Positions 23,226 through 29,576 of a DNA stretch of 64,000 nucleotides are shown in pieces. The translations under genes and the position numbers were made by a program. This stretch comes from Candidatus Saccharibacteria bacterium CG_4_10_14_0_2_um_filter_52_9 (lineage in GTDB: Bacteria; Actinomycetota; Acidimicrobiia; Acidimicrobiales; RAAP-2). The notes beneath the pieces are model-generated. The model worked only from the letters and a program-made list of their open reading frames with translations, did no database searches and was not told where the DNA came from. The first letter of the stretch is position 1. Each line of letters opens with the position of its first letter. The DNA is taken from the NCBI GenBank assembly GCA_903970515.1, contig CAJCJA010000036.1:1-64000 (forward strand), written 5' to 3'.

Positions 23226-24260
23226 TTAGACGACCATGCCGATCTTGAGGAAGTCGCCGTAGAAGATTCCGAGCCCCAACATCGCGAGCAAGCCCGCGAG
23301 GACCCAAAAGCGGATGATCACCGTCACCTCGGGCCACCCTCGCAACTCGAAATGGTGATGGAACGGCGCCATTCGAAATACGCGACGTCCGAACAAGCGA
23401 AAACTCACGACTTGGATGATGACCGAGGCCGTCTCGGCGACGAAGAGTCCTCCGATGATCACCAGCAGCAGGTCCAGATTCATCAACAGACATAACGCAC
23501 CAAGACCGGTGCCGATCGCGAGCGAACCGGTGTCGCCCATCATGATCTTGGCGGGCGCCGCATTCCACCAGAGAAAACCGAGACATGCACCCACGAGAGC
23601 CACCGCGACCAAACCGAGATCAAGGGCGCTGTGGAGACGATAGATCGAAAAGTGGCGAAATTGCCAGTAACCAATGATCGAGAGCACACCGAAGCAAAAG
23701 GTGGCCGAACCCGCCGCGAGACCGTCGAGGCCGTCGGTCAAGTTCACCGCATTGGACGTCGCGACTATGACGAAGATCGCAAAGATGATCCATCCTCCCG
23801 CCGTCAAGTTCCAACCTGGATTCGAATAGCGGGTGAAGGAGAGATTCGTCGAGGTGTGCACCCAGTACACGGCGAGCACCGCGAAGATGGCGGCGACGAC
23901 CAATTGGCCCACCAATTTGCCCCGCTTGTTCAGGCCTAGATTGCGAGCGTTGCGGATCGCCAGATAATCATCAGTGAATCCGAGCAACCCGGACGCGACG
24001 GTGACGCCGAGCGCCAGCACGCCCCCTCGCGTGAAATCGATGGACGTGCCCACGTGACCCATCAGATAGCCAACAATCGCCGCGAAGACGATGATGACGC
24101 CGCCCAGTGTCGGTGTGCCCGCCTTTGCGTGATGCGTCGCGGGCCCGTCCTCTCGGATTTGTTGACCCAGTGAACGTGCCCGCACGAAGCGAATCCACAG
24201 CGGCGTGACAAATAACGCGATGAGAAACCCACACCCGCCCGATTCCATCAAACTCAACAT
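23226..24260 (-). CDS. mraY: Phospho-N-acetylmuramoyl-pentapeptide transferase MraY
   Basis: 344 residues, ten membrane helices. Active-site motifs: KAGTPTLGGVIIV, GFTDDYLAI with the conserved Asp pair, NAVNLTDGLDGLAAGSATFCFG, and MGDTGSLAIG; the nearby MAPFHHHFELRGWPE is the HHH loop of the family. It moves phospho-MurNAc-pentapeptide onto undecaprenyl phosphate to form lipid I. No murD follows, although mraY-murD-ftsW is the common order. Confidence 0.97.
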   Translation of the reverse strand: MLSLMESGGCGFLIALFVTPLWIRFVRARSLGQQIREDGPATHHAKAGTPTLGGVIIVFAAIVGYLMGHVGTSIDFTRGGVLALGVTVASGLLGFTDDYLAIRNARNLGLNKRGKLVGQLVVAAIFAVLAVYWVHTSTNLSFTRYSNPGWNLTAGGWIIFAIFVIVATSNAVNLTDGLDGLAAGSATFCFGVLSIIGYWQFRHFSIYRLHSALDLGLVAVALVGACLGFLWWNAAPAKIMMGDTGSLAIGTGLGALCLLMNLDLLLVIIGGLFVAETASVIIQVVSFRLFGRRVFRMAPFHHHFELRGWPEVTVIIRFWVLAGLLAMLGLGIFYGDFLKIGMVV

Positions 24261-24267
24261 GTGCCCA

Positions 24268-25665
24268 TCACCTCAGAAGCTCTCTCGCGACGTCGCGATC
24301 ATCGAAGGGAATCACCACGTCACCAATCGTCTGGGTCGTTTCGTGTCCCTTGCCCGCCAGCACCACCGCGTCGCCGCGCTGAGCCAATCGAAGAGCCTCT
24401 TCAATGGCTGCGCGTCGGTCGCTGATACGCAGCACCGTCGCTCCGGGCACGGTGCCCGCGATGACGGAATCAATGATGGCATCAGGTGACTCGGAGCGCG
24501 GGTTATCCGAGGTCACGATGGATATTTCGGAGTGGCTGGACGCCACTTCGCCCATGTAGGGCCGCTTTTCCTTGTCGCGATCACCTCCGCACCCAAAGAC
24601 AGTGATGATCCTGCCTCCCTGGAGCATGCCGCGCACATCGCTCAACAGGCGACGAAGGCCCTCGGGAGTGTGCGCGTAGTCGACAATGACTACGAAGTCA
24701 GCGTCACTCACCACCTCGAACCGACCGGGCACACCCGGGACCCTCGACATCACTTCCGCGATCGCGGCTTCATCCACACCCAAGACGCGAAGGATTTCCA
24801 TCGCCATCAACGAGTTGTCGACGTTGTAGTCGCCGATGAGTCGCGTGCGCACGTTGTGCCCACGCCACGTAAATGACGTTCCGTGGAGCGTCGCGACAAC
24901 CTCGCTCGCGAGGTCGCGTCGGACGCGCACGAGCGGGAGCGTGATCATGTCCGCCAGGCGTTCTCCGTACGGGTCGTCGCACCAGATGACCGCGTGCGTG
25001 GCGTGCTCGCTCGTAAAGAGTGAGGCCTTCACTTGAAAGTACGCCTCCATCGTGCCGTGGTAATCAAGATGATCGTGACTCAGGTTCGTAAACGCGACGA
25101 CGCCAAAGATCAGTCCGTCGACTCGACGCTGATCGAGGGCGTGACTGGAAACTTCGAGGGCGACGACGGAACGGTCCCGTAGCCCGTCGAATTCGGCGAC
25201 GAATCGCGCCAGGGTGCGAAACAACTCGGGTGCCGCTGGCGTCGTGCGCACGTTGGTCAGCGTTCCGATGTTGGCGGCGTTCCATCCGAGACCGTCGCAC
25301 AATGACGTGACGAGGGTCGTGACGCTTGACTTACCATTGGTGCCCGTGACCCCCACGAGTTCGAGTAGTTCTTGAGGATCGCCCGCGACGGCGGCACTGG
25401 CGTGGGCGACGAGAGCACGTAGTTGTGTGTCGGGTACGACGATGACGGGAATCGGTGCCCGCGTCGTCTCACTCGAGACCGCCGCCACCGCACCGCGTTT
25501 CGCCGCGTCGTCAATGAACGACGTGCCGTTTCGCACCGCGCCCGGCAGGGCAAAGAACAACGTGCCCTGCTCACACTCGCGCGAATCGATCTCCACGCGG
25601 GTGATCTCGATACTGCTCAGTGTCGCGTCGAGCGTCACCGTGTCAAGGACATCTCCGAGTTGCAT
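24268..25665 (-). CDS. murE: UDP-MurNAc-tripeptide synthetase MurE (meso-diaminopimelate type)
   Basis: 465 residues. It has the P-loop VTGTNGKSSVTTLV near residue 106, EVSSHALDQRRVDGL, FTNLSHDHLDYHGTMEAYF with the carbamylated Lys region, and C-terminal VDYAHTPEGLRRLL. The motif TSDNPRSE near residue 383 is the DNPR loop that selects meso-diaminopimelate rather than lysine. The gene is a single MurE; no MurF is fused or adjacent. Its ATG overlaps the ftsI stop by one base. Confidence 0.96.
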   Translation of the reverse strand: MQLGDVLDTVTLDATLSSIEITRVEIDSRECEQGTLFFALPGAVRNGTSFIDDAAKRGAVAAVSSETTRAPIPVIVVPDTQLRALVAHASAAVAGDPQELLELVGVTGTNGKSSVTTLVTSLCDGLGWNAANIGTLTNVRTTPAAPELFRTLARFVAEFDGLRDRSVVALEVSSHALDQRRVDGLIFGVVAFTNLSHDHLDYHGTMEAYFQVKASLFTSEHATHAVIWCDDPYGERLADMITLPLVRVRRDLASEVVATLHGTSFTWRGHNVRTRLIGDYNVDNSLMAMEILRVLGVDEAAIAEVMSRVPGVPGRFEVVSDADFVVIVDYAHTPEGLRRLLSDVRGMLQGGRIITVFGCGGDRDKEKRPYMGEVASSHSEISIVTSDNPRSESPDAIIDSVIAGTVPGATVLRISDRRAAIEEALRLAQRGDAVVLAGKGHETTQTIGDVVIPFDDRDVARELLR

Positions 25666-27503
25666 CAGGTCACGTCCGATGAGATGCTCGCCGCCGAACC
25701 AGTGAGTGGCTTCACGACCGTCCCGTTCGACGGTATGCCGTAGTGGTGCAGTGCATAGGACATGACTTGTTGAAACACGGGCGCCGCAACTGAGCCGCCG
25801 AAGATTGTCGTTTGGGGACGCTGAATCACCACGATCATGGACAACACGGGCGCGTTCGCTGGCGCGAAGCCGACGAAGCTGGCGTTATAGGCACCCGCGA
25901 GCAGCGAGTCGCGTCCCGGGTACGGAATTGATGCCGTTCCCGTCTTGCCCGCCACGCTGTAGCCGGGAATGATGGCGTTGGTACCCGTGCCTGCCAGGAC
26001 GACCTGTTGGAGCATCGAGTTCATCGTCTGGGCGACCGCGGGCGTGAGGGCTTGGCGAGTAGCACTCTTCGGCGCGGGCTCGAGCGCGCCGTTCGCGCCG
26101 ACGTAACCGCGTACCAACTGCGGCTCGACGAAGACGCCGTCATTGGCGATGGCGTTGTACGCGTCGAGCACCTGCATCGGTGGCACGGCATCAACTTGAC
26201 CGATTGGCAGGGCCACTTCGTCACTGTCGTACCAGTTGGCGGTCGTCGCGAGCAGACCCGCCGTCTCACCGGGAAAGTTCACCGACGTCGACTCCCCGAA
26301 ACCTAAACGCTCGACCTGAGCGAGGATGCCGTTCTCACCAACCATCCGCCCAATTTCGTACGTGCCAATGTTCGACGACTGAGCGAGAATCTCGGTCGCG
26401 CTGAGATGTTCGAGCGGGTGGACCTCGGCGTCGTGAAAGTGCCTCGTACCAACGTTGATTGAATCAGGAACCGCGAACACCGTTGACGGTGCGATGAGTC
26501 CCGCCTGAAGGGCGGCGGAAAACGTCACGACCTTGAAGACCGAACCCGGCTCGTACGCTTGGGTGAACGCCAAATTATTCATGGTCTGTTCAATTCCCGC
26601 GACGCCGACGGAGCGCCCCCACGACGGCACGGGCCCAAGGGGGCCAGCGGATGTCTTGGTGTTCACGAGCGACGCGTCAGCCAGAATCTGACCGGTCTTA
26701 ACGTCCATCACCACCGCGACGCCGGTGAGCGCATTGGTCGACTTGAGTTGCTTCGCGAGCGCACGCTCGGTGACGAACTGCAACGACGAGTCGATGGTGA
26801 GCTCAAGTCCCACTCCAGGCTTCGCCTTTCGTACGACGGTGCTCAAGGAACTGGGCAAACTGACGCCCGATGCGGCGACATATTCGCGCGTCACACCCGA
26901 TTGGCCGGCGAGCAACTTTTGATACTCGTACTCGAGTCCTGAGGTTCCCAGACCCGTGGAATTCGTGCTTCCCAATAAGGATTGGGCGAGCGTGCCATTG
27001 GGATAACTGCGGATGGACGATGTCTGCACCACGATTCCAGGGAACGCCGCGAGCGTGACGCGACGGCCGTCCGTGAGGTTGAGTTGGTTGTTCACGACAA
27101 CGTAACCGCTTTTTTTCGTGAGCAAGGTCTCAAGCTTCGCGACCGGGACCTGGACGAGCGGCGACATCGCTTGTGCTTCACGTAACGGATGTTTGACCTG
27201 GAAATCGTCGGCGATCACCAGAGACGTGGGCCTCGAGATGGCCAAGATTTGACCATTACGGTCATAGATCCCTCCGCGCAGCGCGGTCGTCGTTAAATTC
27301 TCGCGAACCTGGTTCACCGAGATCAGTGCGTAGTGCCGGTGGTCGACGATTTGAATCTCGGCGAGACGATACGCGAGCAGCACGAAGGCCAGGACGAACA
27401 GCGCACGCAAGAAATTGAGCCGGCGGGGCGAGAATGTTCGCACTCGCAAGGGCGGACCCTGCGCTCGAAGTCGGGCATGTGTCGAGGTGTAGTGCGAACT
27501 CAC
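25665..27503 (-). CDS. ftsI: Septal penicillin-binding protein FtsI (PBP3 type, class B)
   Basis: 612 residues. One N-terminal membrane helix (NFLRALFVLAFVLLAYRLAEI), a pedestal domain (RGGIYDRNGQILAIS) and the transpeptidase domain with EPGSVFKVVTF (SxxK serine near residue 318), SSN in LAQSSNIGTYEIG and KTGTASIP near residue 516. It cross-links septal peptidoglycan with FtsW. The cytoplasmic start is short and basic. ATGA-type overlap with ftsL upstream and one-base overlap with murE. Confidence 0.96.
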   Translation of the reverse strand: MSSHYTSTHARLRAQGPPLRVRTFSPRRLNFLRALFVLAFVLLAYRLAEIQIVDHRHYALISVNQVRENLTTTALRGGIYDRNGQILAISRPTSLVIADDFQVKHPLREAQAMSPLVQVPVAKLETLLTKKSGYVVVNNQLNLTDGRRVTLAAFPGIVVQTSSIRSYPNGTLAQSLLGSTNSTGLGTSGLEYEYQKLLAGQSGVTREYVAASGVSLPSSLSTVVRKAKPGVGLELTIDSSLQFVTERALAKQLKSTNALTGVAVVMDVKTGQILADASLVNTKTSAGPLGPVPSWGRSVGVAGIEQTMNNLAFTQAYEPGSVFKVVTFSAALQAGLIAPSTVFAVPDSINVGTRHFHDAEVHPLEHLSATEILAQSSNIGTYEIGRMVGENGILAQVERLGFGESTSVNFPGETAGLLATTANWYDSDEVALPIGQVDAVPPMQVLDAYNAIANDGVFVEPQLVRGYVGANGALEPAPKSATRQALTPAVAQTMNSMLQQVVLAGTGTNAIIPGYSVAGKTGTASIPYPGRDSLLAGAYNASFVGFAPANAPVLSMIVVIQRPQTTIFGGSVAAPVFQQVMSYALHHYGIPSNGTVVKPLTGSAASISSDVT

Positions 27504-27949
27504 CGAATCGTCCTTGACGTGATCGGTGCATAACCAGAAAACTTTGGTAGCGGCAAGATCACGTCAAGTGACGTAGAAGGGACTTGCGTCACGGAGACCG
27601 GTTCGACCAGGTGGAGTGCTCCGGCGTTCGATGCAATCTGACTCGGAGCAGACTTGTTGGTCAGGGAACCCACTTGAACCGCGTACGTCGACTGATCCTG
27701 CAACAGTTGAATTTGCAATTGATGAATTTGCAACTGACGATTGGCCACATACATGCTGCCGGCCAATGAGAGCGCGATCGCTACGAGCAGAATGAAACCC
27801 GCCTTACGCGCGGGCGCTCCGTGGCGCCACAGAGACCTCAGAGCGCGCCGGCGCGCTCCTCGTCCCCGGTGCACCGCGTCCCCACGGGGACGAGTGCGAG
27901 GTGGCGCGGGTGGGTTGGCGACCCGCCGCGGAAGGCTGACGACGCTCAT
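27500..27949 (-). CDS. ftsL: FtsL-like division protein
   Basis: 149 residues: a basic Pro/Arg-rich cytoplasmic segment (1-48), one membrane helix (KAGFILLVAIALSLAGSMYVA) and a Gln/Leu-rich coiled coil (NRQLQIHQLQIQLLQDQ). Sequence identity among FtsL proteins is very low; the call rests on topology and on position between rsmH and ftsI. It would form a complex with FtsQ and FtsB that activates FtsWI. Confidence 0.82.
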   Translation of the reverse strand: MSVVSLPRRVANPPAPPRTRPRGDAVHRGRGARRRALRSLWRHGAPARKAGFILLVAIALSLAGSMYVANRQLQIHQLQIQLLQDQSTYAVQVGSLTNKSAPSQIASNAGALHLVEPVSVTQVPSTSLDVILPLPKFSGYAPITSRTIR

Positions 27950-28887
27950 GGCGCGATCTTTCTCGCGATGCGAAGTCGAGCGGAGCGCGCGCGGGGGTTC
28001 GCCGCGATTTCCTCAGCGCGCGCCAATTGCGCGCTGGCCTTGAAAACCTTGACTCGTCGAACCGCACCGCACACGCATCCCAATTCGTTCGGACACGTGC
28101 ATCCTCCGGTCTCCGCCTCGCGCAAGGTGGTCTTGACGACGCGGTCCTCACCCGAGTGATAGGAGATCACCGCGAGGATGCCATTGATGGCGAGCGCATC
28201 AAGTGCGGCACTCAGTCCCATCGCGAGTTGGTCTTCCTCTTGGTTCACCTCGATGCGCAACGCCTGGAACACCCGAGTTGCCACGTGCCCTCGTCGTCGC
28301 GCCGCCATTGGTACGGCCCGTTCGACCGCGTCGCTCAACTCGTCGGTGGTCGTTGGTTGTCGCTCGAGGATCGACTTCGCAATGGCGCCCGCGAAGCGAT
28401 TCTCACCATTGGCGCGCAGCACCCGCGCGAGTTCGTGCCGGTCAACGTGCGCGAGATACTGGGCTGCCGTTTCGCCCTTCGTGGGATCCATCCGCATGTC
28501 AAGGGGTGCGTCACTGCGAAACGAGAAACCCCGCTGCGCGGCGTCAAGTTGATGAGACGAGACGCCCAGGTCCATCAAGACGCCCACGACGTCCTGTCCG
28601 GCGAGAAAACTCCGATGTCCGTCGAGCACCGCCGGCAAGTCGGCAAAGGCTGCGTCAACGACCACGACCCGCTCACCAAACGTCGCGAGGCGATTCGTCG
28701 CCACCGCGCGCGCTTCGGGATCGCGGTCGATGCCGACGAGTCGCAGCTGAGGCGCGCTGGAAAGAATGGCGTGCGCGTGTCCCGCGCCGCCCAAGGTGGC
28801 GTCGACGATCACGCCAGCGGGCAGGCTGGCGAACAGCTCGACAATCTCGCGCTCGAGCACTGGTTGGTGGAAGTTGTCCTGGGCCAT
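27946..28887 (-). CDS. rsmH: 16S rRNA (cytosine-1402-N4)-methyltransferase RsmH
   Basis: 313 residues. HQPVLEREIVELFASLPAGVIVDATLGGAGHA holds the SAM-binding loop; further motifs are LMDLGVSSHQLDAAQRGFSFRSDAPLDMRMD and ISYHSGEDRVVKTTLRE. It methylates C1402 of 16S rRNA. ATG 28887 starts the family homology and follows GAAAGG; the open frame continues upstream only through non-coding sequence. The ribosome site lies in the 3' arm of a long stem-loop (28889-28965), so translation may be controlled by its folding. Confidence 0.96.
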   Translation of the reverse strand: MAQDNFHQPVLEREIVELFASLPAGVIVDATLGGAGHAHAILSSAPQLRLVGIDRDPEARAVATNRLATFGERVVVVDAAFADLPAVLDGHRSFLAGQDVVGVLMDLGVSSHQLDAAQRGFSFRSDAPLDMRMDPTKGETAAQYLAHVDRHELARVLRANGENRFAGAIAKSILERQPTTTDELSDAVERAVPMAARRRGHVATRVFQALRIEVNQEEDQLAMGLSAALDALAINGILAVISYHSGEDRVVKTTLREAETGGCTCPNELGCVCGAVRRVKVFKASAQLARAEEIAANPRARSARLRIARKIAP

Positions 28888-28888
28888 C

Positions 28889-28965
28889 TGCAGCCTTTCA
28901 ATCGTGAAGAGAGAGCAGAGGGCGGAGGAGGTATCCACTCTCGTCTTCACGATTGCCAGGCTGCA
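28889..28965 (-). promoter_or_regulatory. Long stem-loop occluding the rsmH ribosome-binding site
   Basis: Arms 28889-28910 and 28944-28965 pair over 20 of 22 positions, with one 2x2 mismatch (28897-28898 against 28956-28957). After a one-base bulge at 28943, five more pairs follow (28911-28915 with 28938-28942), leaving a 22-base loop. In the mraZ-rsmH mRNA the downstream arm contains the GAAAGG ribosome site and ends one base before the rsmH ATG. No T-run follows, so this is not a standard terminator. A translational switch, a ribonuclease III site or a thermosensor are possible. Confidence 0.7.
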
Positions 28966-29003
28966 CGTGGTCCGCGGCCGGTACTTCTGTCGCACTCCTT
29001 GCA

Positions 29004-29423
29004 CTAGTGACTGCCTTGTCGGAATTTCTCTTCGGCGGAGTTGACTTGCTCCGCGTACGTCGCGGGATTCCATAACTCGACGTGGTCAAGCATTCCTACG
29101 ACCAAGACGTCGCCCGTGAGTCGGCCGTAGTCACGAATGGCCGCGGGCAACGCGAAGCGACCTTGCTTGTCGAAATCCACGTCGGATGAATTGGCAGCCC
29201 AATAGCGTGCGAACTGACGGCCCGTAGAACCACCACCACGACTCTCGGCGAGATACTCATCGGCCTTGCGGGCGAATTCTCCGGGCGTCCAAAGCGCGAC
29301 GCATCCTTCGGTGTTGGGGCTTAGGTGCCCACCGTGTTCGAATTCGGGTCGAAACCTCGAGGGCAGGATGAGTCGACCCTTGGCGTCCAGTGAGTGTTGA
29401 AACTGGCCAACGAACCCGAGCAT
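29004..29423 (-). CDS. mraZ: Transcriptional regulator MraZ
   Basis: 139 residues with two SpoVT/AbrB-like swapped-hairpin domains: FVGQFQHSLDAKGRLILPSRFRPEFE and SSDVDFDKQGRFALPAAIRDYG, both with the conserved D-x-x-G-R core. MraZ forms a ring that binds phased repeats upstream of its own gene and controls the division and cell-wall cluster. The ATG follows TGGAGGGACTGTC. Its probable operator array begins 18 bases upstream. The 116-base gap to rsmH holds a stem-loop. Confidence 0.96.
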   Translation of the reverse strand: MLGFVGQFQHSLDAKGRLILPSRFRPEFEHGGHLSPNTEGCVALWTPGEFARKADEYLAESRGGGSTGRQFARYWAANSSDVDFDKQGRFALPAAIRDYGRLTGDVLVVGMLDHVELWNPATYAEQVNSAEEKFRQGSH

Positions 29424-29440
29424 GACAGTCCCTCCAGTGA

Positions 29441-29510
29441 GTCACCACTTTGCCCCACTTGACGCCACATTACACCACCACACACCACTGATCGCCAAAT
29501 CGCTCCACTT
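29441..29510 (-). promoter_or_regulatory. MraZ operator array: seven phased 10-bp TGG repeats
   Basis: Read on the minus strand, seven successive decamers carry TGG at the same place: AAGTGGAGCG, ATTTGGCGAT, CAGTGGTGTG, TGGTGGTGTA, ATGTGGCGTC, AAGTGGGGCA, AAGTGGTGAC. Decamers on each side (29511-29520 and 29431-29440) have TGG one base out of phase. MraZ of E. coli binds TGGGN repeats and that of Mycoplasma binds AAAGTG repeats, both with a 10-bp period but only three or four copies. A possible promoter (TTGGCG, 18 bases, TGTAAT) lies inside the array, so bound MraZ would block RNA polymerase. Confidence 0.75.
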
Positions 29511-29576
29511 TGGCGCCATTTTGAAAGATGACAGAACGTCATGAAACCCTAATGAGGACTGTTGGATTGACAGTGT

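Follow-up and report, generated by a model that had tools for sequence, protein, structure and literature searches.

A conserved RNA element in the rsmH leader of Acidimicrobiia, a probable gate of rsmH translation

The RNA segment that precedes rsmH in the window (the whole stretch of DNA analyzed, 64,000 nucleotides) is best interpreted as a cis-acting leader RNA of Acidimicrobiia that serves as a translation gate, probably together with a factor that binds its loop, for which RsmH itself is the best candidate. We assign this interpretation as a whole a probability of roughly 0.6. Its parts are not equally secure: on the comparative evidence the hairpin is real and under selection as RNA, its role as a gate for rsmH translation is well supported by anatomy without any experiment, and the identity of the loop ligand is a hypothesis.

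Results

Genomic setting of the rsmH leader

The window sits in a metagenome-assembled genome of 2.0 Mb (G000) that, among named genomes, is closest to Acidimicrobiaceae MAGs with the labels bog, fen, and palsa. The leader element stands at the head of a conserved cell-wall and division gene cluster, which contains the following genes.

29004–29423, minus strand: mraZ, the upstream gene (PF02381, 66.8 bits, and open reading frame)
27946–28887, minus strand: rsmH, 16S rRNA (cytosine-1402-N4)-methyltransferase (TIGR00006, 284.7 bits; PF01795, 313.5 bits)
27500–27949, minus strand: small ORF in the ftsL position (no Pfam or NCBIfam match)
25665–27503, minus strand: ftsI/PBP
24268–25665, minus strand: murE
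23226–24260, minus strand: mraY

The successive frames from rsmH through the small ORF and ftsI to murE overlap end to start by 1 to 4 bases. The spacer between the mraZ stop and the rsmH ATG is 116 nt long, and the mraZ stop lies 30 nt before the leader element. Upstream of mraZ (29424–29530, minus strand) is a run of GTGG/TGGN words at a spacing of ∼10 bases (for example AAGTGGAGCG, CAGTGGTGTG, AATGTGGCGT, CAAGTGGGGC, and AAGTGGTGAC), which looks like an array of putative MraZ binding boxes.

A long hairpin encloses the ribosome site and start codon of rsmH

The original prediction placed in this spacer a stem-loop that carries the GAAAGG ribosome site in its 3' arm, stops a single base short of the rsmH ATG, and is not followed by a T-run. 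Sequence and fold agree on this arrangement, nothing terminator-like was found behind the hairpin, and a terminator could be ruled out by the absence of a T-run and by the position of the hairpin end at the start codon. The predicted span, 28889–28965, captured the hairpin correctly but was too short, as the element extends from 28973 to 28880 and buries the start codon as well. Its parts are as follows.

28880–28973, minus strand: whole conserved rsmH leader element, 94 nt, single-hairpin form (29 distinct gapless homologues; covariation; match to model R2, described below, at E 3.9e-10)
28958–28973, minus strand: 5' strand of helix P1, GGACCACGUGCAGCCU (fold; columns 1–16 of the genus alignment A1)
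28934–28955, minus strand: 5' strand of the long variable stem, with one bulged base at 28943 (folds; A1 columns 19–40)
28920–28933, minus strand: 14-nt apical loop, UACCUCCUCCGCCC (unpaired in folds)
28922–28927, minus strand: invariant loop core, CUCCGC (invariant in genus and order alignments; 16S comparison)
28899–28919, minus strand: 3' strand of the long variable stem (A1 columns 55–75)
28894–28899, minus strand: GAAAGG ribosome site of rsmH (sequence; pairing probabilities)
28885–28887, minus strand: rsmH start codon, ATG (pairing probabilities; RsmH family match of 27946–28887)

Read in the mRNA sense (minus strand), positions 28965–28958 pair with 28896–28889, 28955–28944 with 28910–28899, and 28942–28934 with 28919–28911. 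Within the P1 5' strand the inner GCAGCCU pairs with AGGCUGC and the outer part pairs with the start codon region, such that the outer pairs (28973–28968/28886–28881) take two start-codon bases, the U and the G, into P1. The only bases of the ribosome site and AUG that are predicted to be unpaired are two A residues of GAAAGG, located in an internal loop, and the A of the AUG. The inverted repeat in the leader has 40-base arms, and RNAfold yielded −63.9 kcal/mol for 28860–29003 (minus strand) compared to −41.3 ± 3.8 for dinucleotide shuffles (z = −6.0), with none of the 200 shuffles being as good. A temperature switch, at which the original prediction had hinted by proposing reporter measurements at several temperatures, is unlikely; the pairing of the ribosome site is predicted to stay closed and unchanged from 4 to 60 °C, and we rejected an RNA thermometer on this basis.

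Covariation within the genus

Leaders were taken from 35 genomes of the same genus, 30 of which align with the window without gaps over exactly 94 nt (29 distinct sequences); in three others the form is longer, and in the remaining two the element is missing from this position. Among the 29 distinct leaders, 95.5% of the cells are paired and double-sided changes are found in 13 of the 29 pairs, with most of these changes falling in the long variable stem. The number of double-sided cells was 94, compared to 32.0 ± 4.7 in shuffles, the covariation was 0.313 versus at most 0.070 when the partner was slid, and RNAalifold recovered the same structure unaided. Covariation in the mraZ-rsmH spacer had been named as a check on the original prediction, and the compensatory signal from these leaders is very strong.

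The element is conserved as RNA rather than as DNA or protein

The inverted repeat, with its 40-base arms, could in principle be a palindrome that acts at the level of DNA (an operator, a cruciform, or a transposon remnant) and has no function as RNA. Such a palindrome would give about equal numbers of G-U pairs and A-C mismatches on the mRNA strand, but the ratios were 36:11 for the genus alignment and 111:36 for that of the order, ∼3:1 in both cases (these counts do not represent independent events), which points to the mRNA strand as the selected molecule. On this asymmetry we rejected the DNA reading, which is also at odds with the three-way-junction fold and the constant position before rsmH, and we regard its remaining likelihood as negligible.

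We also considered whether the conserved stretch encodes protein, as the N-terminal extension of an RsmH that begins at an upstream AUG (ATGCGCAGCC). The rsmH frame runs through the hairpin without a stop in all 29 genus members, and an in-frame ATG is present 27 codons upstream in 17 of them; however, this codon is ACG in the window and in many relatives, and the upstream CAU simply complements the start AUG. The three codon positions of the stem vary equally (0.54/0.48/0.53), unlike those of rsmH (0.27/0.16/0.52), so the element is not kept as protein. The lengths of the elements in the order, moreover, are not limited to multiples of three, and their frame to RsmH shifts. On the basis of the codon-position test, which revealed no periodicity in the stem, and the shifting frame, we rejected the coding extension as very improbable. 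The freedom of the rsmH frame from stops across 28889–28973 (minus strand) in 29 of 29 genus members, with stops in 18 and 7 for the other frames, is unexplained.

Three-way-junction relatives across the order

The element usually takes the form of a three-way junction of ∼121 nt in other families of the order (Acidimicrobiales). Its P1 helix (GCAGCC..GGCUGC) contains the ribosome site and AUG, P2 (GGUGGAAG-loop-CUUCCAUC) bears the conserved loop, and P3, often GGGGAGACAUCCC, is the least well-paired helix (79.6%). The alignment of 25 distinct order sequences has 19 pairs with double-sided changes and a covariation of 0.259, compared to 0.157 in shuffles and no more than 0.113 with slid partners. 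R2, a model of this order-level form, matches the element of the window at E 3.9e-10; because of this match, the single hairpin most likely descended from the three-way junction and is a derived form that has lost P3, a helix that three genus members retain.

At E ≤ 0.01, R2 found the element in 177 of 248 genomes and 113 of 154 genera of the order, and in the phylum sample it identified five genomes of the class outside the order (E 7e-15 to 2e-7). The genome searches were run with strict filters, and absences are thus not firm. Every strong R2 match that was placed stands before rsmH, and no second genomic site was present among the strong matches. The weak matches L278–L281 and L222 fall within other coding DNA, with no rsmH present, and were set aside as looking like chance.

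Relationship to the mraW RNA motif

The mraW RNA motif (RF01746) was described in Actinomycetales, where it precedes mraW (rsmH) (Weinberg et al. 2010, PMC2864571). It shares with the element an actinobacterial distribution, a position immediately before rsmH within the division and cell-wall cluster, a long hairpin, and a conserved pyrimidine loop, and its loop (ACUUCCCC) agrees with the Acidimicrobiia loop (ACUCCGCC) at 6 of 8 positions. In contrast, the element does not have ACUUCCCC itself (it has CCUCCUCCGCCC in the window and ACUCCGCCCG in the order), and the two differ in the P3 hairpin and in conserved stem letters. Searches with RF01746 detected nothing up to E = 10 in the leader of the window and no match at any rsmH leader of 60 relatives; none of the 61 genomes had a match at the 50-bit family cut-off, and none of the weak matches was at rsmH. 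R2 likewise found no match on true mraW RNA loci. Identification as mraW RNA was thus rejected by score in both directions, and the element was not filed as a member of that family because neither model finds the other, although the mraW RNA may be a distant cousin.

When the window element was compared with the other Rfam 15 families, only miRNA precursor families were hit, on the opposite strand and far below their cut-offs, and the order and class elements had no Rfam match at E ≤ 1. In the literature searched, we found neither a description of the Acidimicrobiia rsmH leader nor a tested function of the mraW RNA motif. On these comparisons we regard the element as an RNA family of its own in front of rsmH in Acidimicrobiia, one that Rfam does not list. 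The loops of the mraW RNA matches L076–L079 (UACUUCCCCAACGCCAGG) would be translated as YFPNAR in one frame, so that in mycobacteria the mraW motif may fall within the annotated N-terminal extensions of RsmH.

Position of the element relative to rsmH translation initiation

The element ends in an ATG or GTG that is in frame with RsmH in 55 of 75 cases, although RsmH N-termini vary much in length (5 to 49 residues from the start to the HxPV motif in these in-frame cases). An out-of-frame start codon ends the element in 12 others, and 8 have no start codon. For half of the 12 out-of-frame cases (L011, L257, L259, L223, L224, and L270), a tiny ORF that begins at the AUG of the element stops in an overlap with the rsmH start, in the forms ATGA, TGATG, GTGA, and TTGGTAA; the rsmH start codons in these cases were chosen by us, and some had alternatives. 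An overlapping stop and start is the usual sign of translational coupling, and we therefore read these overlaps as ribosomes entering at the AUG of the element, with the tiny ORF being possibly an unannotated leader peptide that couples translation.

Several of the elements that lost the start codon kept the RNA well (82.9–104.2 bits), as in L264 (97.9 bits), L156 (104.2 bits), and L267, where the rsmH start stands farther downstream. Because 8 of the 75 elements have no start codon there, concealment of that AUG cannot in every lineage be all that the element does. The covariation, the in-frame start in 55 of 75 elements, and the tiny-ORF overlaps support the proposal, made in the original prediction, that the stem-loop hides the ribosome site and gates rsmH translation, though no experiment bears on it. 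The accompanying suggestion of an effect on the coupled genes is plausible because rsmH, the small ORF, ftsI, and murE overlap, but remains an inference. The original prediction did not include the conserved loop at the apex, the relatives with a three-way junction, or the parallel to mraW RNA.

An invariant loop that resembles 16S rRNA around C1402

CUCCGC, the core of the loop, does not change in either the genus or the order alignment while the stems vary freely, with an identity between genomes of 97% in the core and 48–49% in the flanking variable stem, and it is retained in the AT-rich genome L275. The near-invariant loop is CCUNCUCCGCCC, represented by CCUCCUCCGCCC in the window and ACUCCGCCCG in the order; a wider collection of loops reads CCCCUNACUCCGCCCGCUU, but the pattern used to gather it presupposed the core. 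CCUCC is restricted to some lineages (order form CCUACUCCGCC) and hence is not what is conserved in the loop, and an anti-Shine-Dalgarno copy was rejected accordingly. Pairing of the loop with 16S rRNA was also rejected, as it produced only chance-like 7/8 matches that included G-U.

The invariant core bears on the question of whether a gate needs a dedicated ligand at all; the helix could set a fixed low level of initiation, or it could require C1402-methylated ribosomes, as reported for cmpA, in which case the modification state of the ribosome would itself be the signal. In Bacillus subtilis, a stem-loop at the start codon of cmpA makes translation depend on MraW (RsmH) (preprint PMC13317604), and it resembles the present element in its position and in the response of translation to MraW, but its stem is short, the gene is a different one, and MraW acts through modification of the ribosome. 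The location of the ribosome site and start codon within the helix fits such a gate. A plain helix, however, has no need of an invariant loop, yet CUCCGC is kept in all aligned sequences, and a strengthened cmpA stem blocked translation even in the wild type (preprint PMC13317604). We consider a gate without a ligand unlikely.

The 16S rRNA of the window's own genome is absent from the assembly, and that of congeners, which reads GUACACACCGCCCGUC, was used. The order loop ACUCCGCCCG is identical at 9 of 10 positions to 16S residues 1396–1405 (ACACCGCCCG), which surround C1402, the base that RsmH methylates; the limits of this decamer were chosen after the match had been seen. The next best 16S site for the decamer matches at 7 of 10 positions, and among shuffles of its letters 0.25% reach an equal match over C1402, whatever the register. 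With the whole 16-nt loop, C1402 does not stand out in 16S rRNA, and the loop of the window matches only at CxCCGCCC, with part of the match having been lost in the genus. The results are no more than suggestive of a loop that mimics the 16S target of RsmH around C1402.

Discussion

We propose that the closed P1 helix holds the ribosome site and start codon of rsmH and would keep its translation low, as a ribosome ending at mraZ stops ∼30 nt short of the helix. Initiation at the AUG of the element would feed rsmH and then, by way of the overlapping frames, the ORF in the ftsL position, ftsI, and murE. Because the closed state is so stable, its opening would need help. On weaker grounds, the loop may dock a trans-acting factor that stabilizes the closed state, and RsmH binding to its own leader loop would create negative feedback.

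RsmH is the best single candidate for the ligand because the loop resembles its 16S target around C1402. The same logic is familiar from ribosomal-protein leaders, which can mimic the rRNA target of the encoded protein, but the product here is a modification enzyme and the mimicry is short and unproven. Negative autoregulation at the translational level is described for two 16S methyltransferases, Sgm and KgmB, with KgmB acting at 16S G1405 and Sgm shown at the same site (PMC2791848). These enzymes are, like RsmH of the window, actinobacterial 16S methyltransferases, their target lies three bases from C1402, and they repress their own translation, which makes RsmH autoregulation reasonable; they differ in being resistance enzymes and not RsmH. 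A CCGCCC hexamer common to the sgm leader and 16S rRNA was reportedly proposed as the site, and we know of no covarying element for sgm or kgmB. Speaking against RsmH as the loop ligand, its mitochondrial relative METTL15 binds RNA without sequence specificity and with a micromolar Kd (PMC10828496). The specific scheme in which RsmH binds, and perhaps methylates, the copy of the C1402 site in the leader loop and thereby represses its own translation, such that free RsmH (expected to accumulate when few new small subunits are available) shuts off rsmH and the coupled division and cell-wall genes, is offered as a tentative idea that we doubt more than we believe. Whether the element is an rRNA-mimic autoregulator is open.

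The loop could instead bind another factor, such as a KH or cold-shock protein, a ribosomal protein, or a small RNA, with either rsmH translation or mRNA stability as the target. A single-stranded, pyrimidine-rich, conserved loop suits this explanation, and the similar but less 16S-like loop of the mraW RNA (ACUUCCCC) at the same gene would fit a common ligand that is not RsmH. No candidate has been identified, however, and the lack of a second genomic site among the strong matches argues for a ligand tied to rsmH; we keep this explanation as a serious possibility without expecting it to be correct.

The long, near-perfect duplex also raises the question of whether the transcript undergoes RNase III-like processing here, or gives rise to a stable small RNA from the element, so that mraZ is separated from rsmH. 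RNA-seq of C. glutamicum placed a 5' end of mraW inside the mraW motif (PMC3890552), the motif was found there in leader transcripts of small-RNA size (PMC4046766), and in E. coli the mraZ operon is known to yield excised RNAs (PMC6156199). Neither an invariant loop nor a start codon in the 3' strand would be needed for such a role, and we judge it to be distinctly improbable.

The element at the rsmH leader amounts to a well-supported RNA family that is new to Rfam and occurs in most sampled genomes of a bacterial order, and it may also help to explain the mraW RNA motif. The presence of an rRNA methyltransferase gene within the cell-wall and division cluster is an old puzzle, which a leader loop resembling the enzyme's rRNA target turns into a concrete and cheap test. 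If true, RsmH autoregulation would connect ribosome assembly directly with septal wall synthesis.
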